A stretch of 38,287 nt of DNA from Bacteroidales bacterium (GTDB taxonomy: Bacteria; Bacteroidota; Bacteroidia; Bacteroidales; UBA932). The DNA is taken from positions 1 to 38,287 of the forward strand of contig JAKSKF010000012.1 in the NCBI GenBank assembly GCA_024401825.1, in the 5' to 3' direction. Position numbers and translations under genes: made by a program. Shown here piece by piece: positions 22,020-37,954 of the stretch. Numbering within the stretch: position 1 is the first letter of the stretch; every line of letters starts with the position of its first letter. Below the pieces are notes generated by a model, which was given only the letters and a program-made list of their open reading frames with translations, was not told where the DNA came from and ran no database searches.

Positions 22020-22037
22020 TGATTCAGGACTTCCGAC

Positions 22038-22071: not shown

Positions 22072-22095
22072 CAGCATATTTAGTGAGGAAATTCC

Positions 22096-22103: not shown

Positions 22104-22109
22104 CATAAT

Positions 22110-24191
22110 ATGAAGTATAGGAAAGGATTGGCGGCCTTGCTCTCTCTTGCCGCCGTGTGGGGTTGTGTGAAGGAAAACGCGGAGACCCCGCGCACCGGCC
22201 CTGAAATCGAAATTGACCCTCAGGCGAGGGTGTTCAATGCTTATGCGGAAAAGGATTCTTCGCAAACCAGGACATACCTGGGCTCGGACGGGCTCGTTTA
22301 CTGGAACGGGCAGGACCGTGTGAGCGTGTTCGCCGGAGAAAGCGTAAATCAGGAATATGTGTTCGCAGGGGAAACCGGCGACAGGGGCGGTCTGCTCAGG
22401 AAGGCTGCCGTCAATGAGAAATCCGGCGCGGAAGATACGAAGGCAGTCGCCCTGGATGCGAATTATGCCGTATATCCGTACGATTCCGGAATCTCCATAT
22501 CTGAGGACGGTATCATCAGTCTGGAACTTCCTGCAGTTCAGGACTACGCCGGCGACGGTTTCGGTCCCGGGGCGAACACTATGGTGGCCGTGACAAAAGA
22601 TGCGTCGGATGATGATTTCCTGTTCAGGAACGTAGGCGGATATCTTGTGCTGAATCTTTACGGGGACATCTCGGTCAGCAGCGTCACCCTGACGGGAAAT
22701 AACGGGGAAAAGCTTTCCGGCGCCGCCAGCGTGAGCATCGGGTACGGGAAGTCTCCCGAAGTGACGATGGAAGGCAACGCAAGACAGAGCGTGACTCTGG
22801 ACTGCGGTTCCGGAGTGACCTTGGGACGGTCTGCCGAAACTGCCACCCGGTTCTGCTTCACGCTTCCTCCCGTCCACTTCTCCAAGGGCTTCACCATATA
22901 TGTGACAGACACCGGTGGAAAAACGTTCACCAAGTTCTGCAATCTTTCCCAAACGGTAGCCCGGAACGAGATAAATTATGTCTCCGCCTGCAAGGTCTAT
23001 TCGAAGGCGGGCCAATTTGTGGCAGAGTCCGCTCCCTCCGAGTTGTATGACAAGGATAAGGTGAAGAAACTTGTCCTGGAATACGGCGGGGACTATATCC
23101 CGAGCGGAATAATAGGAACTATAGCGGTGAATCTGCTTGTAAGCATTCTTGAGAAGAACGGGGAAATTTCCCTGCACAGGATAATCTACACCACGACGGA
23201 CAGGGACGGATGTGTGGTCGAGGCGTCCGGACTGGTGGCCTACCCCACCAAAATCAAGACTTTCACCAAGGTCCTCAATGTCTGTCACCAGACAGTGGAC
23301 ATAGATGACGCCCCTTCCGAGGCGGATTTGCCATATCTTATGTGCGCTGCCTTCAAGGAGGGCAACCAGGTGGTGGCTATGGCGGATTATCTGGGATACG
23401 GAATAAGCCGGACCGCTGATTTGCAGCATCCCTATATGCACTCCTCCATCACGGGAAACACCTGCGCGGATATGTTCGAGGCCGCGATGCAGTTTATGGC
23501 GGATGAGCGCGGAGTCAGAAAGGGAAACACCCTTGCCGTTGACCTGATAGGATATTCCCAGGGTGGCGCGGCTGTCGTTTCCACTCTTGTGGAACTGGAA
23601 AATCGCGGATATTCCTCAAAAATCAATGAAGTCCGCGTAGGAGGGTGTCCGTTCAGACTTGAAGACGTGGTAAGCGGGTTTATCGAAGACCCTTCCAAGC
23701 CGTATCCGCATATCGAGTTCCTTCCTTTATTCTTCAGGGGGATGGATTATGCCTGCAGGCTCAACCTGGATTTCAGGGAGATTTATGCGCGGAACGTTTT
23801 TGACAGCGGCGCCTTCGCGCTGTTCGACAATACTCAAATCAGTTCCTGGCACAATCGTCTCGGGTCTGACACCAAGAAGGTTCTTCATCCGGATTTCTTC
23901 CTCCCTGAATACAATCACAACCCTGAAATTCTCCGTCTGATTGATGCGGCAGCCCGGAATTCGGTTGCCGACCTGACTCCGAAAAATGCGCGGAAAATCA
24001 AGATTTACCAGTCCAGGACGGACGAAGTGATGGATTATGACAGGGCGAAGGAAATGAGCAGAAAATGGTCCTGCTCTTTTACCGATTTGGAAAAGACTTC
24101 GCACGGTTCGGCCGGTGTGGAATTCTTCGGGATTTATATGGCCCCCAATCTCTGGGACTTAATCAAGGGTCTCGTCCCCGAGGACCTTTAG
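22110..24191 (+). CDS. Lipoprotein: fimbrillin-like N-terminus fused to secretory-lipase-type alpha/beta hydrolase
   Basis: 693 residues. Lipoprotein signal peptide ending LAAVWGC. Residues about 25-290 resemble Bacteroidales fimbrillin-like lipoproteins: the RTYLGSDGLVYWNGQDRVSVF segment and the later FCFTLPPVHFSKGFTIYVTD repeat-strand pattern. Residues about 320-693 are an alpha/beta hydrolase with nucleophile elbow GYSQGG (Ser483), a likely Asp638 (SRTDEVMD) and His665 (KTSHGS). DYLGYGISRTADLQHPYMHS resembles secretory lipases (LIP family). Probably a cell-surface esterase or lipase. It ends 33 bp inside the convergent ROK gene. The substrate is unknown. Confidence 0.75.
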   Translation: MKYRKGLAALLSLAAVWGCVKENAETPRTGPEIEIDPQARVFNAYAEKDSSQTRTYLGSDGLVYWNGQDRVSVFAGESVNQEYVFAGETGDRGGLLRKAAVNEKSGAEDTKAVALDANYAVYPYDSGISISEDGIISLELPAVQDYAGDGFGPGANTMVAVTKDASDDDFLFRNVGGYLVLNLYGDISVSSVTLTGNNGEKLSGAASVSIGYGKSPEVTMEGNARQSVTLDCGSGVTLGRSAETATRFCFTLPPVHFSKGFTIYVTDTGGKTFTKFCNLSQTVARNEINYVSACKVYSKAGQFVAESAPSELYDKDKVKKLVLEYGGDYIPSGIIGTIAVNLLVSILEKNGEISLHRIIYTTTDRDGCVVEASGLVAYPTKIKTFTKVLNVCHQTVDIDDAPSEADLPYLMCAAFKEGNQVVAMADYLGYGISRTADLQHPYMHSSITGNTCADMFEAAMQFMADERGVRKGNTLAVDLIGYSQGGAAVVSTLVELENRGYSSKINEVRVGGCPFRLEDVVSGFIEDPSKPYPHIEFLPLFFRGMDYACRLNLDFREIYARNVFDSGAFALFDNTQISSWHNRLGSDTKKVLHPDFFLPEYNHNPEILRLIDAAARNSVADLTPKNARKIKIYQSRTDEVMDYDRAKEMSRKWSCSFTDLEKTSHGSAGVEFFGIYMAPNLWDLIKGLVPEDL

Positions 24192-25340
24192 CGTCTCATC
24201 CCTGGCTTTCAGGCAGGCTCCTGTACATCCGCCCTTTTCCCCGAGGGCGGACGTCTTTATTGTCACGTTCTGGGAAATCAGCCTCAGCGAATATCGGCGG
24301 ACGGACAGTTTCAGGGGAGAGACGAAAATGTCGCCCGCGGCCTGCAGACTGCCTCCGATAATCACCGCTTCCGGGTTGAACAGGTTGATGAGGTTGGCAA
24401 TCTGCCTGCCGAGTTCGGACCCTGCGCGCTCGATGACCTCGATGGAGAGCATATCGTCCCTCATCGCAGCGTCAATCACATCGTACTCATCTATCTCCGT
24501 CCCTTTCAGAATCCTGTCCCTCAGGATGGAGGATTCCCCTTTCCCTATCCTGTCCCTCAGACGCGAGCATATAGCCCGCCCGGACACCTCCGTCTCCAGG
24601 CATCCCTTCTTCCCGCAGTGGCACATAATCTCGTTGTCATAGATTGAGGTGTGCCCGAACTCGCCGCTGAACCCGTTGGTCCCGTAGTAAACCTTGCCGT
24701 CGATGATGATGCTCAGACCTATTCCCCAACCTACGTTGACAAAGAGGAAATTGCGCAGTCCGTATCCTTCCTTCCGGCAGAGCTCGCCGTAGGACATTAG
24801 GCGGGTGTCGTTGTCTATCAGGACCTTGAACCCCAGGCGGTGGGAGAGTATGTCGCTCAGGGGCTCCTCGTTGTTCTCGAAGTTGAATATGGTGTGACTC
24901 CTTCCCGTACGGTGGTCCACCCGCCCTGAAATGTTGAAGGCGGCGCAGCGGACGCTGTCTCTGGAAACGGACGTCCCGTCGATGAAATCCTCGCATTTCA
25001 GGCAGATGGTTTCCATCATTTCAGGAGTGTTCTCGAAAATTATCTTTTCCTCCTTTTCGGCGACGGTCCTGCCTGAAAGGTCCATCAGGGCCAGGGACAG
25101 GGAACCGTGCTTGGGGTCGACGCCCAGAAAATAAGCCCCTCCGCTGCGGATGTCGTACAGTTTGGGCCTGCGTCCGTGACCCGGTCCGCTCCGCCCGCAA
25201 CCGACAACCCAGCCGGAGGCCTCCAGGAGCGAGAGATACTTGGTGGTGGTGGGAACGCTGGCATTGACGGCGGATGCGATGTCTGCGATGGACATACTGC
25301 CGTTCTGGCACAACTGTCTGATTATTTGCCGTTTCAACAT
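24159..25340 (-). CDS. ROK-family transcriptional regulator (NagC/XylR type)
   Basis: 393 residues from the ATG at 25340. N-terminal winged HTH (about 5-45: MSIADIASAVNASVPTTTKYLSLLEASG). The ROK domain has NVGWGIGLSIIIDGKVYYGTNGFSGEFGH and the zinc-binding motif His230...Cys240-x-Cys242-x4-Cys247. The kinase-type Asp (Asp178 in DNDT) is present, so sugar binding is plausible. A GGAGG site lies 4 nt upstream and a full consensus promoter is present. Divergent from the AGE-led operon, so probably its repressor or activator, responding to an (amino-)sugar. The effector is not identifiable. Confidence 0.9.
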   Translation of the reverse strand: MLKRQIIRQLCQNGSMSIADIASAVNASVPTTTKYLSLLEASGWVVGCGRSGPGHGRRPKLYDIRSGGAYFLGVDPKHGSLSLALMDLSGRTVAEKEEKIIFENTPEMMETICLKCEDFIDGTSVSRDSVRCAAFNISGRVDHRTGRSHTIFNFENNEEPLSDILSHRLGFKVLIDNDTRLMSYGELCRKEGYGLRNFLFVNVGWGIGLSIIIDGKVYYGTNGFSGEFGHTSIYDNEIMCHCGKKGCLETEVSGRAICSRLRDRIGKGESSILRDRILKGTEIDEYDVIDAAMRDDMLSIEVIERAGSELGRQIANLINLFNPEAVIIGGSLQAAGDIFVSPLKLSVRRYSLRLISQNVTIKTSALGEKGGCTGACLKARDETLKVLGDETLD

Positions 25341-25344
25341 CAAT

Positions 25345-25349
25345 CCTCC
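25345..25349 (-). promoter_or_regulatory. Shine-Dalgarno (GGAGG) for the ROK regulator
   Basis: On the minus strand GGAGG ends 4 nt before ATG 25340. It decides this start over a possible upstream one at 25388. Confidence 0.65.
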
Positions 25350-25357
25350 GTTTGGTA

Positions 25358-25388
25358 CAAAATTAAAGTAATTTATAATAAAACCCAA
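25358..25388 (-). promoter_or_regulatory. Consensus promoter of the ROK regulator
   Basis: Minus strand: TTG (25388-25386), 20-bp AT-rich spacer, TAATTTTG (25365-25358). Same architecture as the acpP promoter. Expected start near 25352-25355, leaving a leader of about 15 nt that contains the Shine-Dalgarno. Confidence 0.82.
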
Positions 25389-25448
25389 TACAATGTGTAA
25401 ATAATTTTAAAATGATTTAGTGATGAGGGTGTCTTAAACATTGGCATA

Positions 25449-25507
25449 ACTATCAGATAATCAGTATAGTGGGCAATAACGGATAATAAAGCGCCTTTAA
25501 TAAAAGG
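25449..25507. promoter_or_regulatory. Candidate operator sequences between the ROK gene and the AGE operon
   Basis: Two small dyads lie in the 228-bp divergent spacer: ACTAT (25449-25453) with ATAGT (25466-25470), and CCTTT (25494-25498) with AAAGG (25503-25507). A degenerate -7 box for the AGE gene (TATCTTAC, 25528-25535) lies just downstream, without a -33 TTG. This fits a regulated promoter, but no known ROK operator consensus is recognised. Confidence 0.3.
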
Positions 25508-25568
25508 GATTTAAAAATAAAGATTACTATCTTACGAAAATCGAACAGTACTAAAATCTGTATATACA

Positions 25569-26744
25569 ATGGCAAACTTGGATTTCAAGAAACTCGCGTC
25601 CCAATACAGGGACGAACTTCTGAACAACGTGCTCCCTTTCTGGCTTGAAAAGTCGCAGGACAAGCAGTACGGCGGATATTTCTCCTGCCTGCAAAGGGAC
25701 GGAAGCGTGTTCGATACGGACAAATTCATATGGCTCCAGGGCCGTGAGGTCTGGATGTTCGCCATGCTCTACAACTCCCTTGAAAAGAAGCGGGAGTGGC
25801 TTGACGCGGCGGTTCAGGGAGCGGAATTCCTGAAGAAGTACGGCCACGACGGGAATTATGACTTCTACTTCTCCGTCACAAGGGAAGGAAAGCCCATCGT
25901 CTATCCCTACAACATCTTCTCCAACACCTTCGCCTGTATGGCGTTCGCCCAGCTTGCAAAGGCGACCGGAAGCGGGGAATATGCCGAAATAGCGAGGAAA
26001 ACCTTCGAACGGATTCTGGCGCGCCGCTCCAATCCCAAGGGAAAGTGGTGCAAGATAGTCCCGGGAACCCGTCCGATGAAGGATTTCGCCCTGCCTATGA
26101 TTATCTGCAATATGGCTCTTGAGGTGGAGGACATAATCAATGACCCCGCCCTCATAGAGAAGACTATAGACGAGAGCGTCCACGAGATTGTGGATGTGTT
26201 CTATCAGCCCGACCTGGGTGTGATTCTGGAAAATCTGGCGCCGGACGGAAGCCTTCTCGACTGCTTCGAGGGCCGCAGGGTCAATCCCGGTCACGACCTC
26301 GAGGCGATGTGGTTCCTTATGAACATAGGTATCCGCAGAAATGACAAGGCGCTGATAGAAAAGGCGGTTCAGATTTCATTGAGCGTCATAGAATACGGTT
26401 GGGACAAGCAGTACGGCGGAATATTCTACTTTATGGACCGCAAGGGCTGTCCCACCCAGGAGCTCGAGTGGGACCAGAAACTGTGGTGGGTGCACATCGA
26501 ATCCAGCATAGCGATGATAAAGGGCTACCAGCTTACGGGCAACGAAAAGTGCCTGGAGTGGTTCGAGAAACTCAACGACTACCTGTGGAAGAATTTCAAG
26601 GACAAGGAGTATCCTGAGTGGTACGGTTATCTGAACCGCAGGGGAGAAGTCCTGCTTCCGCTCAAGGGAGGCAAGTGGAAAGGATGCTTCCACGTTCCCA
26701 GAGGCCTCTATCAGATTTGGCAGATACTTGAAACACTGGCATAA
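25569..26744 (+). CDS. AGE-family epimerase (N-acylglucosamine 2-epimerase/renin-binding-protein type)
   Basis: 391 residues, full AGE length with the alpha6/alpha6-barrel pattern. FWLEKSQDKQYGGYFSCLQRDGSVFDTDKFIWLQGREVWMFAMLYN opens the family. His242 (NPGHDLEAMWF) and His375 (GCFHVPRGLYQIW) align with the two catalytic histidines, and His309 lies in KLWWVHIES. The family interconverts GlcNAc and ManNAc, or related sugars such as glucose/mannose units; the substrate cannot be fixed from sequence. No signal peptide, so cytoplasmic. First gene of the PUL, and its TAA overlaps the next ATG (TAATG). Confidence 0.88.
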   Translation: MANLDFKKLASQYRDELLNNVLPFWLEKSQDKQYGGYFSCLQRDGSVFDTDKFIWLQGREVWMFAMLYNSLEKKREWLDAAVQGAEFLKKYGHDGNYDFYFSVTREGKPIVYPYNIFSNTFACMAFAQLAKATGSGEYAEIARKTFERILARRSNPKGKWCKIVPGTRPMKDFALPMIICNMALEVEDIINDPALIEKTIDESVHEIVDVFYQPDLGVILENLAPDGSLLDCFEGRRVNPGHDLEAMWFLMNIGIRRNDKALIEKAVQISLSVIEYGWDKQYGGIFYFMDRKGCPTQELEWDQKLWWVHIESSIAMIKGYQLTGNEKCLEWFEKLNDYLWKNFKDKEYPEWYGYLNRRGEVLLPLKGGKWKGCFHVPRGLYQIWQILETLA

Positions 26745-28057
26745 TGAAAAGACTCGCGTTGACATTGGCATTGTTGGCGGCTGTTGCGGCAGGTTCTGTG
26801 GCAAGGGCCAACAACAACTATATGTGGTTTGACTGCGAGGCGAACTACAAGACCCTGAGCAATCCCGACAACATCAGGAACTATCTGGTGAAGGTCAGGG
26901 ACCTGGGCTTTGACAATGTTGTGGTTGACGTCAAGTCCATTATGGGGGAAGTGCTGTATCAAAGCGGGATAGCGCCTTATATGAGTCCGTTCGAGGGTGT
27001 TTCCCGCCCTGTGGACTACGATATGATGGGTTATTTCCTGCAGTACGGACACGAACTCGGACTCAAGGTCTTCGCCAGCCTGAACGTGTTCTGCGGCGGG
27101 CACAATTTCATGAACCGGGGCATCATCTACACAGACCACGCCTCCTGGCAGAGCATCTGCTACATCAAGGGGAAACTTGTCCCCATCAGCCGCAACAAGA
27201 AGAACTACAACGGAATGCTCAATCCCTCCAATCCGGAGGTACAGCAGTATGAACTGGACATCCTGAAGGAGTTCGTCCGCAAATATCCGTCCTGCGACGG
27301 CCTCATCTTCGACAGAATCAGATACGACGGCATAACCTCCGATTTCAGCGACCTGTCCCGGCGGCAGTTCGAGCAGTATGCCGGGGTTCGGGTGGAGAAC
27401 TTCCCCGAGGACATCATCAGTTGGAAGGGCTTCCTGGGAATCACCAGGAGCAAATGGCGTCCCGGCAAGCATTTCAAGAAATGGTGCGAATGGCGGGCGA
27501 TGGTTATCCACGATTTCGTGGAAAGGACCCACGACGAGCTCAAGGCCATCAATCCAAACCTGATGATAGGAGACTACACGGGGGCCTGGTATCCGACCTA
27601 CAACGAACTCGGGGTGAACTGGGCCTCGAGGGAGTATGACCCGTCCGTGGATTTCGACTGGGCGACTCCGGAATACAGGAATGCCGGTTATGCGGAGCTT
27701 CTGGACATCTATATGACAGGCCTGTACTACTCTTACATCACCAAGTCTGACATAGACAGGGCCCGTTTCATAAAAGGCCAGAGCGGCGAGGCCGGCCTGA
27801 AACTGGACCTTACCTACTGCTACAGTGTGGAAGGCGGAGCCGAACTCGCAAAGAAAGTGACACGGGGAGTGGTTCCCGTGGTAGGCTCAATCTATGTCGA
27901 GCAGTATCTCGGCGAGATGCGCAAGTTCGCTCCCGCGGTGGAGCAGTCCCTCAAGTCAACCGGGGGAGTGATGGTGTTCGACATATCCCACCTGGACAAG
28001 CACGGTCTCTGGGGGGAGCTTCAGACAGCGATGAAAAATCAGAAACAAACCAAATAA
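26744..28057 (+). CDS. GHL10-like glycoside hydrolase, periplasmic (copy 1)
   Basis: 437 residues. Type I signal peptide (MKRLALTLALLAAVAAGSVARA). TIM-barrel features of the GHL10/DUF187 group: LVKVRDLGFDNVVVDVKS (strand 2), YGHELGLKVFASLNVF, and the putative active-site strand CDGLIFDRIRYDG (Asp190), then GAWYPTYNELGVNWAS. The characterised GHL10 enzyme E. coli DigH cleaves denuded peptidoglycan strands; whether this one does is unknown. Paralogue of 34605-36032. Translation is coupled to AGE by TAATG; 9 nt before susC. Confidence 0.75.
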   Translation: MKRLALTLALLAAVAAGSVARANNNYMWFDCEANYKTLSNPDNIRNYLVKVRDLGFDNVVVDVKSIMGEVLYQSGIAPYMSPFEGVSRPVDYDMMGYFLQYGHELGLKVFASLNVFCGGHNFMNRGIIYTDHASWQSICYIKGKLVPISRNKKNYNGMLNPSNPEVQQYELDILKEFVRKYPSCDGLIFDRIRYDGITSDFSDLSRRQFEQYAGVRVENFPEDIISWKGFLGITRSKWRPGKHFKKWCEWRAMVIHDFVERTHDELKAINPNLMIGDYTGAWYPTYNELGVNWASREYDPSVDFDWATPEYRNAGYAELLDIYMTGLYYSYITKSDIDRARFIKGQSGEAGLKLDLTYCYSVEGGAELAKKVTRGVVPVVGSIYVEQYLGEMRKFAPAVEQSLKSTGGVMVFDISHLDKHGLWGELQTAMKNQKQTK

Positions 28058-28066
28058 TCAACGAAT

Positions 28067-31000
28067 ATGCTTAAGAAATTATCCGTAATTCTGCTTTCCC
28101 TCATTCTCGGATGCACAGTTGCATCTGCGCAGAACGCATTGTCGGGAACAGTCAGAGATGAGAACGGAGAGCCTATTCCCGGTGTGACGGTTCTGGTCAA
28201 GGGAACCACCAACGGAACCACCACCGACATTGACGGCAAATACCGTCTTTCAGTCCCCAAGAAGGCAGTGATTGAATACAGCTGCATAGGACTGACGGGC
28301 ACGACGTTCGTTTATGACGGGTCCAAGACCCACGACGTAGTCTTGACGGAAGACCAGCTCTTCCTTGATGACGTAGTGGTTGTGGGATACGGTACCCAGA
28401 AGAAAAGTTCACTTACAAGCGCGGTTTCCGCAATCAAGGGAGATGAACTCCTCAAGGCCCCTTCGACCAACGTGTCACAGGTGCTGGCCGGGCGTCTTCC
28501 CGGAATCTCCTCAGTGCAGGAGTCAGGCGAGCCCGGTCTGGACCAGGCATCCCTGAGAATCCGCGGTTCGGTCTATGGAGTGGCGTATGTGGTTGACGGC
28601 TTCCCCGTTGACAACATCAACGACATAGACCCTGCGGACATAGAGAGCGTATCCGTCCTCAAGGATGGAGCCTCGGCCGCGGTTTACGGACTCAAGGCCG
28701 CTGGCGGTGTAATCATAATCACCACCAGGAAAGGTGACAAGGGAGACACCAAAATCACCTACAACGGTTCGGTCGGCGTTTCAATGAACGCCAACTTCCC
28801 CCGGTTCATGGACGGCCCCCAGTTCGCCTACTACTACAACGTGGCTCAGATGATGGACCAGCTGGCCAACGGAGAAATAGCTTCTTCAGACCAGTATGTT
28901 CCCTATTTCACCCAGGAGAACATAGCCGCGATGACAAACGGTGACCCCGCCGACGGATGGGACAACGTCGACTACATCAACAAGGTGTTCGGCACGGGCG
29001 TCACGCAGAAGCACAACCTCACCTTCCAGGGAGGAAACGACAAGGCGCGTCATTTCACATCTTTCGGATTCCTGTCCCAGAAGGGTAACATAGACAACTT
29101 CGACTACCGCAGATATAACGTCCGTACCAACATCGACGGAAAGATTGGAAAGAACTTCGACTACAAGGTGGGCGTCAGCGGCGTGCTCAGCAACCGCAAC
29201 ACTCCCGCATACCTTTCCGGAGGTTCTGATTCGGACGGAGGCACGGAGGCCGGCTGGTTCAGTATATCCCGCCAGACCATCCAGATGCATCCCTATCTGC
29301 CCGAGAAGTACAACGGAGTATATACCGGCGCCGTCCAGAACAACCAGTCTTATCTGGTCAGCCCTCTGGCTTCCATCTACGAGTCGGGATTCAAGAAGAC
29401 AAGGAGTTTCGACTTCTCCGCCAACGTTGACCTCACCTACAACTTCCCCTTCCTCAAGGGGCTGTTCATCAAGGCTTCGGGTTCCTTCAGTTACGGCAAC
29501 TCCTACAACAAGAACCTCAGCACGCCCTACGCAATGTACAGCCACACCAAGGTGGGCGACCAGTGGGTATGGAACAGCCGTACCGACAACCCTCACGTTT
29601 CCGACAACGTGACCAACCTCGGAGAAGGCTCCACCTACTCGATGCAGCTTGTGGGACAGGGAAGCATCGGCTACCAGAACAGTTTCGGAAAGAACAACGT
29701 CGACCTCCTCGCGCTTGTGGAAGTACGCCAGTACGAAGGCAACAGCCTTGCCGCATACGTCAAGAACCTTCCCTTCGCGTCTCTTCCGGAACTGAGCAAC
29801 GGTGTTCCCACTACGAGTCCCGTCTCCGGTTGGAGCAGCGCATCCCGCAGCGCGGGTTACGTGTTCAGGGCAAAGTACGACTATGACGAGAAATACCTTG
29901 CCGAGTTCACGGGCCGCTATGACGGTTCCTACAAGTTCGCAGGAATGACCGGAACCCGCTGGGGCTTCTTCCCCTCCGCCTCAATAGGTTGGAGAATGTC
30001 CAAGGAGGACTGGATGCAGGACGTCAAGCCCATCAACGACCTCAAGCTCAGGGCCAGCGTGGGTCTGCTCGGAAATGACAGCGTCAGCGAGTATATGTTC
30101 CTCAGCACCTACAGCCAGTACGGCTCCAAGATTGCCTACGGCCTTCTGGACGGTTCGACTCTGATTGTTCCCGCCTACTACACCTCAGGAATTCCCAACA
30201 CGGACCTCACCTGGGAGAAAACCCTCAGCTGGAACGCCGGTTTCGATATGACGATGTGGAACGGCCTTCTGGGACTGGAAGTCGACGGGTTCTACAACTA
30301 CACCTACGATATGCTCACCTACCAGAGCACCGGATTCCCCAGTTCGATGGGCGGCTACTATCCCACCTGGGTCAACAAGAACGCCATCGACGCCAAGGGT
30401 ATAGACATTATGGTAAGCCACCGCAATCACGTTGACCTGGGAGGCAAGCCTTTCTACTATGACATAACCGGAAGCCTCACCTACTCGCACACCCGCTGGC
30501 TCGTTTACAACGACGAACCCAATATCGTGGATTACCGCAAGGTGGTGGGCACCCGGTACGGAAGCATACTCTGCTGGCAGGCTGACGGCCTGTTCCGGAG
30601 CGAGGACGAGATAGACAACAGCGCCTGGTTCGGAACCCGTCCCAACGTCGGGGACATAAAGTACAAGGACCTCAACGGTGACGGAAAAATCGATGAGGAC
30701 GACAAGGGATTCTTCGGACGCAGCAACCGTCCCCAGCTGACCTTCGGTCTGAACCTCAACATAGCCTGGAACGGAATAGACTTCAACGCCCAGTTCACCG
30801 GAGGAGCCCTCTTCGACATCTCTATGACCGGTACCTACTACAACGGTTATGACGACAACACCATCTGGACACAGACCTTCAAGGAGGGAGGAAACTCTCC
30901 TCTGTTCCTCGTGGAGAACGCATACAGCGAATACAACCCCAATGGAACCTTCCCCCGCCTGACCCTGAGCACCACGAGCCACGGCGGAGACAACGGCCTG

Positions 31001-31246
31001 AGCAGCACCTTCTGGATTCGTGACGGCAAGTACCTGCGCCTGAAGACCGCCCAGTTGGGTTACACCCTTCCCCAGACCTGGACCCATAAAGCCGGAATAG
31101 ACGCTTTCCGTATCTTTGTGGAAGGTCAGAACCTCTTTACCATCTCGGGACTTCCCGCAGGCGTGGACCCTGAATCTCCGGGAGTCAACAACGGTTATTA
31201 TCCCCAGCAGAGATTGCTTATGGGCGGTATTACACTTACATTCTAA
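28067..31246 (+). CDS. SusC/RagA-family TonB-dependent outer-membrane transporter
   Basis: 1059 residues. Signal peptide cleaved after ASA (residue 21); carboxypeptidase-regulatory-like Ig domain (about 25-95, GTVRDENGEPIPGVTVLVKGT); TonB-box region DDVVVVGYGTQKK (101-113); plug domain with the SusC pattern LAGRLPGISSVQ and SVLKDGASAAVYG; then a 22-strand-type barrel ending in Phe (GGITLTF). No N-terminal STN/secretin domain, so not an anti-sigma-coupled type. With SusD it imports oligosaccharides too large for porins. Directly followed by susD, 12 nt away. Confidence 0.96.
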   Translation: MLKKLSVILLSLILGCTVASAQNALSGTVRDENGEPIPGVTVLVKGTTNGTTTDIDGKYRLSVPKKAVIEYSCIGLTGTTFVYDGSKTHDVVLTEDQLFLDDVVVVGYGTQKKSSLTSAVSAIKGDELLKAPSTNVSQVLAGRLPGISSVQESGEPGLDQASLRIRGSVYGVAYVVDGFPVDNINDIDPADIESVSVLKDGASAAVYGLKAAGGVIIITTRKGDKGDTKITYNGSVGVSMNANFPRFMDGPQFAYYYNVAQMMDQLANGEIASSDQYVPYFTQENIAAMTNGDPADGWDNVDYINKVFGTGVTQKHNLTFQGGNDKARHFTSFGFLSQKGNIDNFDYRRYNVRTNIDGKIGKNFDYKVGVSGVLSNRNTPAYLSGGSDSDGGTEAGWFSISRQTIQMHPYLPEKYNGVYTGAVQNNQSYLVSPLASIYESGFKKTRSFDFSANVDLTYNFPFLKGLFIKASGSFSYGNSYNKNLSTPYAMYSHTKVGDQWVWNSRTDNPHVSDNVTNLGEGSTYSMQLVGQGSIGYQNSFGKNNVDLLALVEVRQYEGNSLAAYVKNLPFASLPELSNGVPTTSPVSGWSSASRSAGYVFRAKYDYDEKYLAEFTGRYDGSYKFAGMTGTRWGFFPSASIGWRMSKEDWMQDVKPINDLKLRASVGLLGNDSVSEYMFLSTYSQYGSKIAYGLLDGSTLIVPAYYTSGIPNTDLTWEKTLSWNAGFDMTMWNGLLGLEVDGFYNYTYDMLTYQSTGFPSSMGGYYPTWVNKNAIDAKGIDIMVSHRNHVDLGGKPFYYDITGSLTYSHTRWLVYNDEPNIVDYRKVVGTRYGSILCWQADGLFRSEDEIDNSAWFGTRPNVGDIKYKDLNGDGKIDEDDKGFFGRSNRPQLTFGLNLNIAWNGIDFNAQFTGGALFDISMTGTYYNGYDDNTIWTQTFKEGGNSPLFLVENAYSEYNPNGTFPRLTLSTTSHGGDNGLSSTFWIRDGKYLRLKTAQLGYTLPQTWTHKAGIDAFRIFVEGQNLFTISGLPAGVDPESPGVNNGYYPQQRLLMGGITLTF

Positions 31247-31251
31247 GGAGG
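31246..31251 (+). promoter_or_regulatory. Strong Shine-Dalgarno (AGGAGG) for susD
   Basis: AGGAGG overlaps the susC TAA stop and lies 7 nt before the susD ATG. May raise SusD translation within the polycistronic mRNA. Confidence 0.7.
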
Positions 31252-31258
31252 AACGGAT

Positions 31259-32917
31259 ATGAAAAAATATACAGTAATATTGGCTGTTTCGGTCATTGCG
31301 CTCGTTTCCTGCAACAAGTTCCTGGATATGACTCCCAGGGACAGGGTTTCCGCAAAGACCATCTGGAACACGACAGAAGCCGCAGAGTACAACATCAACT
31401 ATCTGTACTCTTACATCTGGGACATCAATTCCAGCCCTACCGTCATAGGACTTACCGAGTCCCTGACGGACGAGATGAAATACACTTCATACAACTACAA
31501 CGCGCTTTGCTACATCCCGTCGGAGATGGCATACGGCGGACAGGTCATCAAGGCCTCCTACGTCGATTCCTATCTGGGATGCTGGGGAACGCTCTACACC
31601 GCAATCCGCCAGACCAACGAGGCCCTGAACTACCTCCACGCCTATGGAGAGATGAGCTCCGGGGACAAGACCCGCTTGGAAGGAGAAATCCGATTCATGC
31701 GCGCCTACCTTTACTTCGAACTTGTCAAAAGGTACAAGTCCGTCATAATCTATGACGAGGACCTGTCCGCCATTGTCAAGGACAAGGCCCTGTCAAGCGA
31801 GGAGGAAGCCTGGGACTTCATCTGGAACGACCTTGATTTCGCGGCTCAGAACCTTCCCGTCGCGGCAAACGCGAAAGGCCGTCTCAACAAGGGAATAGCC
31901 TGCGGATTCATCACCAGGGCGATGCTTTACGCCAAGCGCTACGACAAGGTGACGGCCGCAGCCCAACAGGTCAAGGAACTCGGCTATGAGCTGGAGGAAA
32001 ACTACTCCGACGCCATCTCGAAGTCTCTTCAGAACGGCAACAGGGAGACCATACTCCAGTACACTTTCGACTATGCCAACGACATTGTTCACAGTTTCAA
32101 CTACTACTACACCCCGGGAGGAGACTACACCCTGATAGAAAGCAAGGGCGGCGCATACGGAGTCCCCACCCAGGAACTCGTGGAGAGTTACGAATACGCC
32201 GTGTCGGGAGGTTTCCCTGACTGGACGGAATGGCATAACCCTTCCGGTACGGTCAAGACCCCCCCATATGCGCTTCTTGAGCCCCGTTTCCAGGCCACCA
32301 TACTCTACAACGGAGCCGAGTGGAAGGGCCGTAAAATCGAGCCTTATGTAGGCGGAACGGACGGCTGGGCGGTCTGGAAGACAGAGAAGGAACCCAAGGG
32401 CAAGACAGTCACCGGATATTATCTTCGCAAGCTTGTCGACGAGAGTTACGATGTCAGCATCTCGTCTTCAAGCCAGAACTTCGTGTTCCTGCGCTACGCT
32501 GAGGTACTCCTCAACGCGGCGGAAGCCTATGTGAAGGGCTCTCCCGCAAACGAGGCGGAGGCCAACGCCATCCTTCGCAAAATCAGGGCCCGCGTAGGTC
32601 TTCCCTACGTGGACAAGAGCGGAAATGACCTGTGGAAGGCAATCGTACAGGAGCGCAAGGTTGAACTTGCGTTCGAAGGCCTCCGCTATTGGGACCTCCG
32701 CCGCTGGCAGGTCTCCGACCGGGATTATCCCGAGGGACTCGCTTCCTATCAGCAGCACGGCCTGAAGATAGAGAAGAGCGGGGACACTTTCACCTATTCA
32801 TATGTCTCAGTGGACGAAAAGGATAGAACTTACTCACCTAAGCTCTATCAGTTCCCTATGCCCGAAAGCGAGTTGAATTCCAATTCGCTCGTGAACCAAT
32901 ACGATGAATGGAAATAG
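31259..32917 (+). CDS. SusD/RagB-family outer-membrane glycan-binding lipoprotein
   Basis: 552 residues. Lipobox at Cys18 (ALVSC) followed by NKFLDMTPRDRVS, the classic SusD start. TPR-rich helical core: EIRFMRAYLYFELVKRYKSV (helix pair near 145-165), NEAEANAILRKIRARVGLPYV and QERKVELAFEGLRYWDLRRW near 465-485. SusD forms the hinged lid of the SusC barrel and binds glycan. Pairing with the upstream SusC is certain from order and spacing. Confidence 0.95.
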   Translation: MKKYTVILAVSVIALVSCNKFLDMTPRDRVSAKTIWNTTEAAEYNINYLYSYIWDINSSPTVIGLTESLTDEMKYTSYNYNALCYIPSEMAYGGQVIKASYVDSYLGCWGTLYTAIRQTNEALNYLHAYGEMSSGDKTRLEGEIRFMRAYLYFELVKRYKSVIIYDEDLSAIVKDKALSSEEEAWDFIWNDLDFAAQNLPVAANAKGRLNKGIACGFITRAMLYAKRYDKVTAAAQQVKELGYELEENYSDAISKSLQNGNRETILQYTFDYANDIVHSFNYYYTPGGDYTLIESKGGAYGVPTQELVESYEYAVSGGFPDWTEWHNPSGTVKTPPYALLEPRFQATILYNGAEWKGRKIEPYVGGTDGWAVWKTEKEPKGKTVTGYYLRKLVDESYDVSISSSSQNFVFLRYAEVLLNAAEAYVKGSPANEAEANAILRKIRARVGLPYVDKSGNDLWKAIVQERKVELAFEGLRYWDLRRWQVSDRDYPEGLASYQQHGLKIEKSGDTFTYSYVSVDEKDRTYSPKLYQFPMPESELNSNSLVNQYDEWK

Positions 32918-32919
32918 TT

Positions 32920-34608
32920 ATGAAAAAGACGATACTTACTATGCTGACGCTCGCGCTCGTGGCAACATCCTGCCACAAGCCCGAGTATGTGAAGCCCACC
33001 GCCGACAGGCAGGGCCTGACCAGTCTCACGGCAATCTTCACCTTCGGTCCCTTCGTTGACCAGGAGCTTGCAAAGCTCACCATAGAGGACGACAGCCAGG
33101 ACTACTTCGTGATACCGATTCCGTATTATTTCCCCGCAAGTTCAGAGAACCAGACCCTGGCATATATGACCAGCGTAAGGGTCCAGGCGGAACTTCAGCC
33201 GAACTTCAAGCTGGACCCGCCCCTGGGAGTGCTGGACCTTACGGATGAGCACAAATTCACCCTTACCGACCCTTTCGGCAACAGCCGCCAGATTATCATC
33301 ACGGGCCAGAGGGTGAAGTCCGCGGATTGTGAAGTCCTGTCCTTCTCGCTTGACAACCCCAAGGTGTCCGGCGTAATAGACAAGACGGCGAAGACCATAG
33401 TCCTTCCCACGGGGGATGACGTTTCCCATTGTACGGCCACCATATCCGTGTCTCCTCACGCTACGGTGTCTCCGGACCTTTCCAAGCCCAGGGACTACAC
33501 CAATCCCGTCAAGATTACGGTGACGGCCCACGACGGAAAGACCACGGCCGAATACACCGTTCAGACAGGAGCTCCGGAGAAGATGGAAAGCGGCATCAAC
33601 ATCAACAGCATAGAGAAGCTGTTCAATCTTGACCCCGTGACCAGAATGGGCCTTCCTCCCTACAACGAGTCCGTTTACATTTCTCTCGCTTCAATCGAGG
33701 GCAATCTCATAGTTTGCCTCGGCAACGGTTCGGCTCCCGTCTATTTCGACGGAATCTCCGGAGACAGGAAGGGATTCGTGAATCTCGGTTCCGCTCCCGC
33801 GGATGTCATCGCCAATGACGAGGGCGGGCACCTCCTCTTCGCTTCGTACGCACAGGGAGGAGACAACCGTGAGACCGTGAACATCTGGAAGACCTCTTCC
33901 GTATCGGATGCTCCCGTGCTGTTCCACTCGTTCGACAATCCCATTGACGTGCCCATAGGACACAGGATGAAGATTATGGGCGATGTGGAGAAAAACGCCG
34001 TGATTACTTTCACCGCCGAAGGCATCGAGTCGGTGACTTCGACCGCCAAGGCCGTTTACCTCACGGTCAAGGGAGGAGCAGTGACTTCCGTCGATGTGGT
34101 TGACTTCGCGTCAGTCACCGGAGGTTGGGGCCCCGCTCCCGTGCATATTGCGACCGTGGTTCCCGCATCAGTCGAACCCGGTTTGGACGGTTGGTTCTAC
34201 GACTATTACAACGGCAATGCCGATGCTGAGGGCAACTACCTCCTGCATTACTGTACGGCCGCCGGAGCGGACAACATCGTTGCAAGACTGGGCAATGGAA
34301 ACTACAATCCCAACTGCCTTGACTCCAAGGGCTTCAACAATTGCCGCTATATGGTTCTCCTTATCGTGAGCCACTTCCCCCAATGGGTTGGACCGATGCT
34401 CTATATGTTCGACATCACCGACCCTGCCTCGACGGCTCTGCTCGTATCCAACGAGAACCTCGCCTGGACACAGAAGGGAACCAACGGAGTCGCCGCTGGA
34501 GACGTGATTCTCAGTCCTTCGGCAGACGGGTACAAACTGTATATGTACTTCTATGACCACAACTCACAGGCCGCCGGCGGTTATGTTGTGGATTGTATCA
34601 AGAGATGA
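32920..34608 (+). CDS. DUF5018-type surface lipoprotein (SusE-position glycan-binding protein)
   Basis: 562 residues from the ATG at 32920; an ATG at 32908 lies inside susD and lacks a signal. Lipobox Cys18 (VATSC). Residues about 135-217 form a DUF5018-like Ig domain (VLSFSLDNPKVSGVI ... NPVKITVTAHDGKTTAEYTVQ). Residues about 225-562 form a beta-rich domain with FPQWVGPMLYMFDIT and GWFYDYYNGNADAEGNYLLHY that is colinear with the C-terminal half of the BACON protein at 36059. By position, a cell-surface glycan-binding protein that presents substrate to SusCD. Its TGA overlaps the next ATG. Confidence 0.75.
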   Translation: MKKTILTMLTLALVATSCHKPEYVKPTADRQGLTSLTAIFTFGPFVDQELAKLTIEDDSQDYFVIPIPYYFPASSENQTLAYMTSVRVQAELQPNFKLDPPLGVLDLTDEHKFTLTDPFGNSRQIIITGQRVKSADCEVLSFSLDNPKVSGVIDKTAKTIVLPTGDDVSHCTATISVSPHATVSPDLSKPRDYTNPVKITVTAHDGKTTAEYTVQTGAPEKMESGININSIEKLFNLDPVTRMGLPPYNESVYISLASIEGNLIVCLGNGSAPVYFDGISGDRKGFVNLGSAPADVIANDEGGHLLFASYAQGGDNRETVNIWKTSSVSDAPVLFHSFDNPIDVPIGHRMKIMGDVEKNAVITFTAEGIESVTSTAKAVYLTVKGGAVTSVDVVDFASVTGGWGPAPVHIATVVPASVEPGLDGWFYDYYNGNADAEGNYLLHYCTAAGADNIVARLGNGNYNPNCLDSKGFNNCRYMVLLIVSHFPQWVGPMLYMFDITDPASTALLVSNENLAWTQKGTNGVAAGDVILSPSADGYKLYMYFYDHNSQAAGGYVVDCIKR

Positions 34609-36032
34609 TGAGAACAGCTTACAGAATATTTGCGGCTTTTCTTGCCGTTTCCCTGGCTTTTTCGGGAATGTCCTGCCAGAAACCTCAGCAGGGCACACCC
34701 GACTGGCCCTGGGTTGACCCGGAGCCCAAGCCGGATACCATCCCGACACCTCCACCGGGCCCGGACGAGCCGGAAGAGCCGGAGCCTCAGTTCAAGGGAA
34801 AGCCCCGCTATGTGTGGATAGATGCGTCAGCGAATTTCAGGTACTACGCCAACAGCGAGAGCCAGATTGAGCAGGACCTTCTCAAAATCAAGGCGATGGG
34901 CTTCACTGACGTGATTGTGGACGTGCGTCCTACGGAAGGCACCGTGCTTTTCAAGTCAGACATCTGCCCTGCAGCCACAAAACTGGCGGCCTGGGTGGAC
35001 GGACAGTACAAGTTCGTCAACAGGACAGAGACCTTTGACTTCCTGCAGGCCTTCATTGAATACGGACACAAGGCGGGCCTCAGGGTCAATGCCGCTATCA
35101 ACACCTTTGTATGCGGATACAGCTACGGAAACAAGAGCGTGGGCCCTGTCTTCACTGGAGAAGTCCCCGCAAAATGGGCTACGGTAGTGAATACGGCGGA
35201 CGGCCTTCAGAGTTCTTTCTATGACGGAGTGCAGGGGACGGTGTTTATGAATCCTGCCAACGCCGATGTCCGGGAGTTTATGCTCAGTCTCATCGGTGAA
35301 CTTGCCGCCTACAAGCCGGACGGAATAATTCTCGACCGCTGCCGTTACGACGACACGGGCTTGGGAAGCGATTTTTCCGAAGAGTCCCGCAAGGCCTTCG
35401 AGGCTTACATCGGCAGGACTCTGGACAACTGGCCTTCCGACGTGTTCGCCCCCGGCACTGAAGCCCTTCCAAGGACTTTGAGCGCTACGCAGAAATCCTG
35501 GATGAGCTTCAGGGTGAAAACCATCCACGACTTTGTGGAGAAGGCTTCCCTGAAGGTGCATTCCATATCCGCCGACACCCGGTTCGGATGCTATGTGGGC
35601 GCCTGGTACGCCGACTACTATCCATCAGGAGTCAACTGGGCGAGTCCGGATTACAATGCCCGCAACAGTTATTCCTGGGCTGACGCCGACTACTCCGGAT
35701 ACGGTTTCGCGGACCATTGTGACTTTATGATGTTAGGATGTTATGCCGGCACCAAGAACATCTATGGCAACGGCGAATGGTCTATGCAGGGCTTTGCGAA
35801 ACTCGGAAAGCAGAAGATAGGAAACAAGGTTGAGGTCAGCGGCGGTCCCGACATAGGCAATGCCTCCGGCTTCGAGTCAGGCGGTCAGGGCGCGCTTATC
35901 CCCAAGACCATAGACGCCTGTATCAACTCCTGTGACGGATACTTTGTCTTCGACCTCTGCCACATCCGTATGTATGACTACTGGAGCAATTTCAAGACAG
36001 GAATCGACGAATATCTGAAAACAGTCAAATAA
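34605..36032 (+). CDS. GHL10-like glycoside hydrolase, lipoprotein (copy 2)
   Basis: 475 residues. Start at ATG 34605 (ATGA overlap with the upstream stop) or the adjacent ATG 34608; the TTG at 34593 is unlikely. Lipobox SGMSC, then a Pro/Glu-rich linker of about 35 residues before the catalytic domain. Barrel features parallel copy 1: IKAMGFTDVIVDVRPTEGTVLF, YGHKAGLRVNAAINTF, PDGIILDRCRYDD (Asp244), GAWYADYYPSGVNWASPDY. The linker and lipid anchor suggest a surface-exposed enzyme that makes fragments for SusCD. Exact linkage specificity unknown. Confidence 0.75.
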   Translation: MMRTAYRIFAAFLAVSLAFSGMSCQKPQQGTPDWPWVDPEPKPDTIPTPPPGPDEPEEPEPQFKGKPRYVWIDASANFRYYANSESQIEQDLLKIKAMGFTDVIVDVRPTEGTVLFKSDICPAATKLAAWVDGQYKFVNRTETFDFLQAFIEYGHKAGLRVNAAINTFVCGYSYGNKSVGPVFTGEVPAKWATVVNTADGLQSSFYDGVQGTVFMNPANADVREFMLSLIGELAAYKPDGIILDRCRYDDTGLGSDFSEESRKAFEAYIGRTLDNWPSDVFAPGTEALPRTLSATQKSWMSFRVKTIHDFVEKASLKVHSISADTRFGCYVGAWYADYYPSGVNWASPDYNARNSYSWADADYSGYGFADHCDFMMLGCYAGTKNIYGNGEWSMQGFAKLGKQKIGNKVEVSGGPDIGNASGFESGGQGALIPKTIDACINSCDGYFVFDLCHIRMYDYWSNFKTGIDEYLKTVK

Positions 36033-36058
36033 CACTTTATTACCAATTTCTATTTATT

Positions 36059-37954
36059 ATGAAAAAGTTTCTTTTTTTGATGACCGCATCCGTTGCTCTT
36101 CTTGCAACGGCTTGCCAGCAGAAGCAGGACCCCGTTACTCCTGCTGTCACTCTTACCAGCGAGGCTGAAGTGGGCGTTCCCACCGAAGGCGGGCAGTTCA
36201 CAGTGACCTTCACTTCGAACGTCCCCTGGACAGTATCCCTGGACAATGCAAACTGGACCGTATCTCCCAAGTCAGGCGATGCGGGTTCGGCTTCCGTCAA
36301 GGTTACGGCGACTGACAACACTACCAACGACCCTGTTGTGTCAAAACTCACAATCAAGGCCCAGTCAGCCAGCGCCACCGTCGTCTTCACCCAGCTTCAG
36401 AAAGACGGGATGGTTGTAAATGTCACCGAGTATGAGGCTCCCTGTGAGGCTTCTACAGTCAGCGTGAAGGTTCTTGCAAACGTAACCGTCACGGCTACCG
36501 CAAACAATGACTGGCTCACCATTGCCGAGGGTACCAAGGGTCTGGTTGAAAAGACTTTCGAGGTTGCAGTTGCCGCCAACGAGGGTGAAGCCCGCGAGGG
36601 AACTGTCACCATCAAGGGAGCAGGCAAGGAAGAGACCGTCACCATCAAGCAGGCTGCATTCGAGCCCAAGTTCGAGGTTGACAATTATGATTTCGATGTA
36701 ACAAAGGACGGAGGCGAGTTTACAGTGAACATAACCACCAACGTTGAGTTTACCGTAAAGGATTATTCAGACGGTTCATTCCCTTGGCAGAGCGCTACAC
36801 TTGCACCGGACAAAAAGAGCCTGAAGGTTGTCATCGGTGCCAATGAGAACTATGACGCGCGCACGTCATATGTCAAGTTCACCGTTCCTGCAATCCAGGA
36901 CCCTGTCGAAGGCGAGGATGGCGAGCCCACGGGAGAGACCAAGGACCACGAGGTAAGGGTTTACTTCCATCAGGTAGGCTATACCACCGTAAATTGGGAG
37001 ACTGCTCTTCCCGAACAGTTTAAGACCGGTACTCAGCTTTCAATGGCAAAGCTCTCAGACTTCTATTTGCTTTTTGACGGTGTCAACTTCCCTGTATTCT
37101 TCAATCCTTCGACCGGAGAAATAACGGGTATCGATGATTGGCAAATCATTGTCGAATCGACAAAGGCGGGCGAAGACATAGAGATAGCAGAAATCTTCAA
37201 CGATGATGCCGGCAACTTGCTTGCAGTTACCAAAGCTTCTTACCTTGAACAGTTTGACGTCTTTGTGATTCCTGCCGGAATTTCACTCGAGTCCGTAGAG
37301 CCTGTCATCCTCTTCAGCTCATACTTTGATTACTACGGATACGGATATGGCCACTTTGCGGCAAGCGGCAATGTCCTGGACGACGGTGTCGTAACAGCCT
37401 TCTTTACAGGACAGGTGGATGGCGGAATTTCCGCACAAGGGGCATATTGGGAAATCGAGAACGGTCAGGTCAGCCAGCGTGAACTCATTGAAATTCCAAC
37501 CGGAAGTACAATCTGGGCTTCCAACAATGTGGCATTCGTTCCTTTCGGAACAAGCGCGGCCGACGGATTCCTCTATGACGGTTATGACGGGACATATACT
37601 CTTCGGCATATAGCAGGAGGCGTATCCACACCTCTTGCAACTATAGGAGACTGGGCAAATGGCGTAACCAGCATCAAGGCCGGTGTCTGGGGAAGCAAAC
37701 CTGTTGTAGCCATCAACAATATGGCTTACTTCCCTCAGTGGGGTATGCCTTCGGTGCTGACAGTATTCGACGCAACTGCGATGACCCCCATCACAACCGT
37801 CGAGATTCTTGCTGACGGCCGTGAGGGTTCATTTATGTCAGACCCTCACCAATCGTCTTGCTTATTGTTTGAACAGAAGGGTGACGCTCTCATCGTTTAC
37901 TCAGCAGACGGCTCACAGGGTCTTCTCCAGAAGATAACCATACCTGCCAAATAG
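36059..37954 (+). CDS. BACON-domain lipoprotein with shared C-terminal beta-rich domain
   Basis: 631 residues. Lipobox Cys19 (LATAC). Three BACON-like Ig domains: about 30-115 (TSNVPWTVS...NWTVSPKSGDAGSASVKVTA), 118-200 (ATANNDWLTIAEG...EGTVTIKGAGKEETVTIKQ) and 205-305. The C-terminal half (about 310-631) is homologous in order to the DUF5018 protein (FPQWGMPSVLTVFDAT, GFLYDGYDGTYTLRHIAG). BACON domains bind carbohydrate or mucin in some proteins but often act as spacers. Probably a second surface glycan-binding protein; last gene of the PUL. Confidence 0.78.
   Translation: MKKFLFLMTASVALLATACQQKQDPVTPAVTLTSEAEVGVPTEGGQFTVTFTSNVPWTVSLDNANWTVSPKSGDAGSASVKVTATDNTTNDPVVSKLTIKAQSASATVVFTQLQKDGMVVNVTEYEAPCEASTVSVKVLANVTVTATANNDWLTIAEGTKGLVEKTFEVAVAANEGEAREGTVTIKGAGKEETVTIKQAAFEPKFEVDNYDFDVTKDGGEFTVNITTNVEFTVKDYSDGSFPWQSATLAPDKKSLKVVIGANENYDARTSYVKFTVPAIQDPVEGEDGEPTGETKDHEVRVYFHQVGYTTVNWETALPEQFKTGTQLSMAKLSDFYLLFDGVNFPVFFNPSTGEITGIDDWQIIVESTKAGEDIEIAEIFNDDAGNLLAVTKASYLEQFDVFVIPAGISLESVEPVILFSSYFDYYGYGYGHFAASGNVLDDGVVTAFFTGQVDGGISAQGAYWEIENGQVSQRELIEIPTGSTIWASNNVAFVPFGTSAADGFLYDGYDGTYTLRHIAGGVSTPLATIGDWANGVTSIKAGVWGSKPVVAINNMAYFPQWGMPSVLTVFDATAMTPITTVEILADGREGSFMSDPHQSSCLLFEQKGDALIVYSADGSQGLLQKITIPAK

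Follow-up and report, generated by a model that had tools for sequence, protein, structure and literature searches.

Polysaccharide utilization loci (PULs) are the main glycan-feeding route of gut Bacteroidales and are usually assigned through classical carbohydrate-active enzymes (CAZymes). The PUL described here has none of these, its relatives have few, and its gene content narrows the substrates to a short list. It is found in a 38,287-base stretch of DNA from a Bacteroidales bacterium (GenBank assembly GCA_024401825.1, contig JAKSKF010000012.1), hereafter the window, which is the whole of contig C4 of a draft genome (G000; 1.48 Mb, 89% complete). With a SusC-SusD pair (SusCD), an N-acyl-D-glucosamine 2-epimerase (AGE) and two putative glycoside hydrolases that combine a GHL10 with a DUF4985 domain (GHa and GHb), it is a conserved amino-sugar PUL, for which the hypothesis of a phosphate-bearing glycan is stronger in the relatives than in the window itself. 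We give a probability of about 0.4 to the reading that the locus is a SusCD PUL for an N-acetylhexosamine (HexNAc) glycan of microbial envelopes, likely with N-acetylmannosamine (ManNAc), phosphodiester-linked HexNAc and O-acetyl groups.

Among described systems, the GHL10 family is common to the window proteins, to Cwp19 from C. difficile and to DigH from E. coli. Cwp19 is described as a lytic transglycosylase (PMC6016235), and its structure (5oq2) is the best relative of the GHL10-DUF4985 profile in the PDB (E 1.1e-10). Unlike Cwp19, the window proteins exhibit DRxR where Cwp19 has Asp195-Asp196, harbor the additional DUF4985 domain and are set in a PUL. The nan operons of Tannerella and Bacteroides (NanE, NanO, NanU) similarly associate a ManNAc-to-N-acetylglucosamine (GlcNAc) epimerase with a SusCD pair (PMC3969230), whereas the window has neither a sialidase nor a lyase, and its SusD is not NanU (25.6 bits for a cut-off of 425). 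As for the NAGPA/DUF2233 phosphodiester glycosidases (the human uncovering enzyme; 3ohg), their family domain can be found in a protein of the relatives but not in the window locus. The related loci of B. xylanisolvens XB1A (L135) and B. stercorirosoris (L134) have a similar order, AGE-SusC-SusD-DUF5018-NAGPA-GHb-metallophosphoesterase-GHa-DUF5009; unlike the window, both have NAGPA and GH20, and L135 also has a SASA fusion and a GDSL esterase. In B. thetaiotaomicron, the counterpart would be the region BT0433 to BT0439-BT0443 and BT0449-BT0453, with a gene order there that is putative; PDB entry 4h41 is presumably BT_0435. Among the matches listed in the open-licence literature (titles and abstract openings), neither a PUL with GHL10/DUF4985 nor such a gene set or its substrate is described.

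All eight genes that a sequence-only reading of this DNA had placed at 24159-37954 are open frames there, and profile searches assign them to families as follows.

24159..25388, minus strand: ROK-family transcriptional regulator, winged helix-turn-helix plus ROK sugar-sensing domain (PF00480 174.7 bits, HTH_24 35 bits)
25389..25568, no strand: divergent promoter region between ROK and AGE, intergenic, 180 bases
25569..26744, plus strand: AGE, N-acyl-D-glucosamine 2-epimerase (GlcNAc/ManNAc), presumably cytoplasmic (PF07221, NF052547)
26744..28057, plus strand: GHa, putative glycoside hydrolase, GHL10 and DUF4985 (PF02638)
28067..31246, plus strand: SusC/RagA TonB-dependent outer-membrane transporter (TIGR04056 897.1 bits)
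31259..32917, plus strand: SusD/RagB surface glycan-binding lipoprotein (PF07980 175.3 bits)
32908..34608, plus strand: DUF5018 lipoprotein, probable surface glycan-binding protein (PF16410 323.8 bits)
34593..36032, plus strand: GHb, putative glycoside hydrolase, GHL10 and DUF4985, lipoprotein with a Trp-containing N-terminal segment CQKPQQGTPDWPWVDPEP
36059..37954, plus strand: BACON-domain lipoprotein, probable surface glycan-binding protein (PF13004 59.6 bits)

The profile cut-offs are passed for PF00480 (22.9 bits), TIGR04056 (368.25 bits) and PF07980 (23.1 bits). AGE, GHa, SusC, SusD, DUF5018, GHb and the BACON gene are consecutive on the plus strand with overlaps or small gaps, the stop codon of AGE and the start codon of GHa sharing one base (TAATG), while the ROK gene is divergent. 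SusC and SusD, spaced by 12 bases, form the adjacent pair of a SusCD PUL, and they are linked to binding proteins (DUF5018, BACON), enzymes (two GHL10, AGE) and a regulator (ROK). The nine window proteins scanned include no sialidase, lyase, sulfatase or classical glycoside hydrolase, in agreement with the sequence-only reading. In the PDB, the DUF5018 protein weakly matches a DUF4960 protein, that of entry 8a9y (E 1.8e-5), and GHb probably starts at ATG 34608 rather than at TTG 34593. As the contig stops 333 bases past the end of the BACON gene, the last of the locus, the latter may be cut.

With regard to the sugar, AGE scores 260.5 bits against PF07221 (cut-off 23.4) and 674.4 bits against the NCBIfam equivalog NF052547 (cut-off 600), which places it among the curated N-acyl-D-glucosamine 2-epimerases. 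Under other epimerase models it remains far below the cut-off (cellobiose 2-epimerase, 65.7 vs 800; mannose isomerase, 35.9 vs 600), and its top PDB matches are N-acetylglucosamine 2-epimerases (519 and 503 bits), the cellobiose epimerases listed reaching at most 70 bits. It is the single PF07221 match found in its own genome. The presence of AGE suggests ManNAc in the substrate, because none of the 36 locus genomes has a neuraminate lyase (NanA) that exceeds the cut-off, a count made with the TIGR00683 model, which may miss Bacteroides-type lyases. The AGE frame of L135 (955-1908) has 317 residues against 391 in the window, and its start is thus perhaps truncated.

The search for orthologous loci that the sequence-only reading had proposed reveals a conserved PUL of gut Bacteroidales with a recurring core order. 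DUF4985 can be found in 9 of the 41 genomes of the first search for relatives and, at the level of the family, in 54 of 299 genomes, the genome under study being included in both. Across the stretches fetched around such matches (14 in a first fetch, two of which, L030 and L031, cover further GHL10 sites in the genome under study, and 40 in a second), a SusC-SusD-DUF5018-GHb core recurs, frequently together with GHa and AGE; since the same core order is present in many genomes, the arrangement is not due to chance. A scan of species-level genomes with a GHb alignment gave 368 confirmed stretches, the best 80 of which were kept, 40 of them having at least 21 kb. Counting tblastn matches that span at least 80 residues and at least 25% of the query, the 40 loci with full flanks harbor SusC (40), SusD (40), DUF5018 (40), AGE (36), metallophosphoesterases of three pooled types (35), NAGPA (34), DUF5009 (34), BACON (32), a FAD oxidoreductase (25), DUF4434 (23), a major facilitator superfamily (MFS) protein (19), ROK (12), CE2 (9), GH20 (4), GDSL (2) and SASA (1); NamZ and SSF are each found in 0 of the 40. 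In all 80 loci, many of which are shortened, the numbers are 61 for AGE, 64 for NAGPA, 56 for metallophosphoesterase and 54 for DUF5009. GHL10 copy numbers are left out of these counts because one reference sequence, GHa of L135, was out of frame; its row was likewise disregarded in the active-site comparison. Longest-ORF (open reading frame) gene calls lose some genes to antisense frames, and absences in them were not counted.

The nearest named relatives of GHb are encoded by metagenome-assembled genomes of Bacteroidales from horse faeces (68-70% identity) and by Candidatus Cryptobacteroides (54-61%). Related loci can be found in Bacteroides, Muribaculaceae, Cryptobacteroides and Tidjanibacter, including those of B. 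xylanisolvens XB1A, B. stercorirosoris and Caecibacteroides pullorum. At the level of the phylum, the GHb profile matched 9 of 395 genomes, the own genome included (E up to 1e-30), and in L177, from another family of the same class, AGE, SusC, SusD, GHL10, NAGPA, DUF5009 and an SSF transporter are present together.

Several families missing from the window are clustered in this genome on another contig, C1, at its end, namely FAD oxidoreductase, metallophosphoesterase, DUF5009, sugar porter (TIGR00879 367.5 bits, cut-off 237.8) and DUF4434 genes, the DUF4434 protein matching PDB entry 4h41 with an E-value of 4.9e-182. These genes are 37-76% identical to the matching PUL genes of relatives, and the cluster also holds a 735-residue protein with no Pfam or NCBIfam match. 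Judging from these resemblances, the cluster is probably the remainder of the window locus, separated from it by the assembly.

The families linked to the core in relatives give the reading its further detail. NAGPA, a phosphodiester glycosidase in Pfam (102 bits in L018; L135 protein vs PDB 3ohg, E 5.8e-13), has solved animal members named N-acetylglucosamine-1-phosphodiester alpha-N-acetylglucosaminidase, and in the 80 loci its gene adjoins both DUF5018 and GHb, standing between the two, at 51 of 73 core GHb genes. In PMC12423673, DUF5009 proteins intermix with HGSNAT, and no function of DUF5009 is confirmed according to that paper. NagX, a distant HGSNAT relative, has a part in the use of glucosamine by five bacteria, with N-acetylation of glucosamine as its proposed role (PMC9007349); the L135 DUF5009 protein reaches 39.1 bits with the NagX model (cut-off 480). 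GHL10-DUF4985 is also naturally fused to a metallophosphoesterase (L178, in a frame free of unread assembly bases) and to a SASA O-acetylesterase (L135). Another apparent phosphoesterase-GHL10 fusion, of 814 residues in L026, was dropped as its frame crosses unread assembly bases (X). Taken together, NAGPA, the phosphoesterases, the SASA fusion, DUF5009 and GH20 point to an acetylated hexosamine glycan with phosphodiesters and O-acetyl groups. Uptake of an amino-sugar glycan, as put forward by the sequence-only reading, is upheld in its amino-sugar part by the AGE score and by the DUF5009, NAGPA and few GH20 genes of relatives.

From the gene content and linkage, and from enzyme families assigned by profile, we infer a substrate, cell locations, a direction and an order of steps. 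The glycan would be bound at the surface by the SusD, DUF5018 and BACON lipoproteins, cleaved there by GHb, and by NAGPA where present, and the oligosaccharides would be imported by SusC. In the periplasm, the degradation would be completed by GHa together with phosphoesterases and esterases, joined in some species by GH20, DUF5009 possibly N-acetylating free glucosamine, before HexNAc is taken up by the MFS sugar porter. AGE would then convert ManNAc into GlcNAc for phosphorylation, and the ROK protein would sense HexNAc and control the divergent promoter. In this genome, the periplasmic and the HexNAc uptake steps hold only if contig C1 is part of the same locus.

Several observations weigh against this reading of the locus. 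C1 is linked to the window by homology only. NAGPA is not present in the window locus, where DUF5018 and GHb adjoin, and the phosphate part of the reading thus rests on relatives; the two NAGPA matches of the genome, on C9 and C45, are outside the locus, the former with no PUL gene in the 3.6 kb around it and the latter inside a separate SusCD locus. Moreover, the NAGPA family is broad, its non-animal PDB relatives listed being named uncharacterised or by locus. Retention of the best 80 of 368 loci skews the sample to close GHb relatives. AGE is missing from 4 of the 40 loci with full flanks (L102, L103, L105, L123), and 3 of its 61 matches are only 36-39% identical. NagA (TIGR00221) passes the cut-off in just 11 of the 36 locus genomes, and neither G000, which is 89% complete, nor the single-contig G050 has a match; this gap counts against any simple GlcNAc-catabolic reading, unless an unrecognised deacetylase substitutes. 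Finally, the GHL10 active site is unlike that of Cwp19, which leaves hydrolysis itself unproven.

This last point comes from the alignment of the two enzymes. Both are GHL10 proteins by profile (PF02638, 61.2 bits for GHa and 42.7 for GHb, gathering cut-off 27.9) and both harbor a C-terminal DUF4985 domain (114.3 and 111.2 bits, cut-off 39.3), and in PDB comparisons no close solved relative of the GHL10-DUF4985 subgroup was found. GHa has a signal peptide in which no clear lipobox is seen by eye, and would be periplasmic. In Cwp19, Asp196, next after Asp195, is proposed to be catalytic or to stabilise an intermediate (PMC5765458). When aligned to 5oq2, both window proteins have an Arg at this position, as do 165 of 185 GHa/GHb-like frames in the fetched loci, with Tyr in 3 and the motif not found in 17. 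The motif reads FDRIRYD and LDRCRYD in the window proteins, and FDDYFYP is kept in a classical GHL10 protein on C27 of the same genome. Alignment A3 comprises 45 domains, picked from the window and 133 listed frames; all of them share Asp179, Arg180 and Arg182 (45/45), and the Asp196 equivalent is always Arg (45/45). GHa and GHb are, by their profile, GHL10 proteins but without the proposed key acid of Cwp19, and such proteins may use a different residue or favour an anionic substrate.

Wall teichoic acid has a linkage unit of ManNAc-GlcNAc-1-phosphate, and ManNAc-phosphate capsules exist. A bolder form of the preferred reading, tentative and on balance doubtful, would have the SusCD system harvest microbial phosphodiester-linked amino-sugar polymers of this kind, either wall teichoic acid or ManNAc-phosphate capsules, with GHL10-DUF4985 as a new glycoside hydrolase family whose DRxR site serves anionic substrates and with a Trp-rich N-terminal segment common to the surface enzymes, perhaps as a tag for docking to SusCD. 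If phosphoglycans or teichoic acids were indeed used as food, these bacteria would consume the envelopes of their neighbours, and DUF4985 with GHL10, DUF4434 and DUF5018 would gain a role.

Regarding the proposed tag, Trp residues can be found right behind the lipid Cys (such as IPDWPW) in NAGPA and many core GHb lipoproteins, e.g., L135:8946-11401. A WxW motif within 25 residues is present in 58 of 67 NAGPA and 12 of 56 core GHb proteins, but in none of 79 SusD, 86 DUF5018 and 64 BACON proteins, nor in any of 106 other lipoproteins encoded in these loci. One or more Trp residues are found in 61/67 NAGPA, 48/56 core GHb, 1/86 DUF5018 and 3/64 BACON proteins, yet also in 78/79 SusD proteins; residues at the beginning of the GHL10 domain proper are left out of these counts. 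The Trp-rich N-terminal segment may be a docking tag. Away from any PUL, GHL10 proteins 42-49% identical to GHa are encoded at L172, L173 and L174, in other lineages of the phylum, with no PUL genes in the 14-20 kb fetched; the family may therefore predate the PUL or serve another role.

Of the alternatives, an unlikely one is that the PUL serves some other glycan, for instance of plants or algae, with AGE handling a sugar not considered so far. The substrate of the locus is a prediction from gene content, PDB entry 4h41 labels DUF4434 as a putative alpha-L-fucosidase, and the distant variants L065 and L176 carry GH97, all of which would suit this view, but AGE is over the GlcNAc-epimerase equivalog cut-off and far below that for cellobiose epimerase, and the linked families indicate HexNAc.

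It is distinctly improbable that the locus is devoted to sialic acid or host glycans, with AGE as NanE acting after neuraminate lyase and ROK as NanR. A ManNAc-to-GlcNAc epimerase does belong to sialic acid catabolism in Bacteroidetes (PMC3969230), the ROK protein BT0433 (NanR) of B. thetaiotaomicron is predicted for sialic acid plus GlcNAc (Ravcheev et al., PMC3878776), and SASA esterase domains are present in relatives. However, the sialidase and the lyase of a nan operon are both missing from the window, no sialidase family was found in the subset of neighbour genes scanned, and the window SusD, as seen above, falls far short of NanU. While 22 of the 36 locus genomes have a NanA match below the cut-off, the model having the limit already mentioned for Bacteroides-type lyases, none has one above it; the best match in the own genome (109.6 bits, cut-off 382) is probably a dihydrodipicolinate synthase.

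Equally hard to favour is a role in peptidoglycan use, where the GHL10 proteins would cut peptide-free chains of GlcNAc and N-acetylmuramic acid (MurNAc), SusCD would import the products, and MurNAc and GlcNAc would enter cell-wall recycling. Besides the activity of Cwp19 and its rank as best PDB relative, such a role is suggested by E. coli DigH, which degrades denuded glycans (PMC12288456), and by NagX, an HGSNAT relative like DUF5009, which is distantly related to the putative MurNAc transporter TfMurT (PMC9007349). In four genomes of one genus, NamZ can be found either next to the locus (G050, G238) or no more than about 10 kb from it (G214, G151), G256 has a weaker NamZ-family match (72 bits) within about 10 kb, and G050 also has an AmpG-like gene beside the locus (TIGR00901 168.8 bits, cut-off 350). 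This amounts to 5 of 36 genomes, four of them in one genus, and, as the NamZ family occurs in all 36, its mere presence is uninformative. With one NamZ query, no relative was found in the 80 named loci, a count that is uninformative for the NamZ-bearing genus because that genus is poorly represented there (SSF 0/80). NamZ beside ROK in L035 seemed to decide for peptidoglycan use, an impression that did not survive counting in 80 loci and in 36 genomes. None of the nine window proteins scanned is a mur, nag or ampG product, and a linkage to murQ, ampG or namZ is absent at the window, linked nag, nan and mur genes having been named as a check by the sequence-only reading. MurQ is over the cut-off in 15 of the 36 locus genomes, each time either at a distance of more than 500 kb or on a different contig, which in drafts is compatible with nearness; the G000 match (296.9 bits, cut-off 302) is on C37, away from the locus. 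In addition, the Asp196 position of Cwp19 is mostly taken by Arg, and we know of no role for an AGE epimerase in the use of GlcNAc-MurNAc strands. The denuded peptidoglycan suggested as a possible target by the sequence-only reading is therefore not supported, with no mur gene in the window, no MurQ near any locus, sparse NamZ and Arg in place of Asp196.

A PUL for poly-GlcNAc, either the poly-N-acetylglucosamine (PNAG) biofilm polymer or chitin oligosaccharides, is the least probable. In its favour are a match of the GHL10-DUF4985 profile to PgaB in its PNAG hydrolase domain (4p7l, E 0.0005 and 0.002), a single member at 23 bits against GHL13 (below the cut-off of 27), DUF5009/NagX-like N-acetyltransferases that would fit partly deacetylated glucosamine, and GH20 in some loci. 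On the other side, GlcNAc use needs no AGE, no GH18 or GH19 was found among the neighbours scanned, NAGPA and the phosphoesterases would be left unexplained, and the PgaB match is weak and partial.

To return to the locus read as a PUL for an envelope HexNAc glycan, its ROK regulator has Mlc (167.8 bits, cut-off 530) and NagC (165.9 bits, cut-off 650) as best NCBIfam matches, both far below the cut-off. A palindrome, CTTTTTA-N8/9-TAAAAAG, recurs in the promoter regions of relatives, e.g., upstream of AGE in L092, L094, L101 and L136. At least 12 of its 14 positions match in 13 of 34 promoter regions, for a mean of 0.5 and a maximum of 3 in 30 shuffles that were approximately dinucleotide-preserving, the palindrome having been picked from the same regions with spacers of 4 to 13 tried. 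Such matches, with a spacer of 8 or 9, are present in 10 of 13 ROK-AGE regions. The palindrome can also be found where DUF4434 is divergent instead of ROK. In relatives, CTTTTTA-N9-TAAAAAG is a candidate ROK operator on the basis of this recurrence; none is claimed for the window since its best match there is 10/14.

Elsewhere in the same genome, L171 (G000:C45:50000-69900; 2-18630) is a second SusCD locus that encodes a BACON-NAGPA protein, a glycerophosphodiester phosphodiesterase (GDPD, 86.5 bits) and a NAGidase (PF07555) beta-N-acetylglucosaminidase, with a GH123 protein on the opposite strand; it is a candidate PUL for teichoic acid or a glycerophosphate glycan. In G050 (L035:1-3026, L057:15583-16899), SpoIID-domain, AmpG-like and NamZ genes are grouped beside the PUL, and the peptidoglycan-recycling cluster of Tannerella forsythia associates ampG with murT, murK and murQ (PMC7670621). 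Upstream of the window locus (20494-24191) are rpoA- and rplQ-like genes, named by eye, and between these genes and the locus is a 702-residue protein with no Pfam match and a lipase-like GYSQGG motif. In another genome (L066, 573-5372), the SusC gene of a related locus directly follows an rplQ-like gene, which suggests that the chromosomal site is partly conserved.

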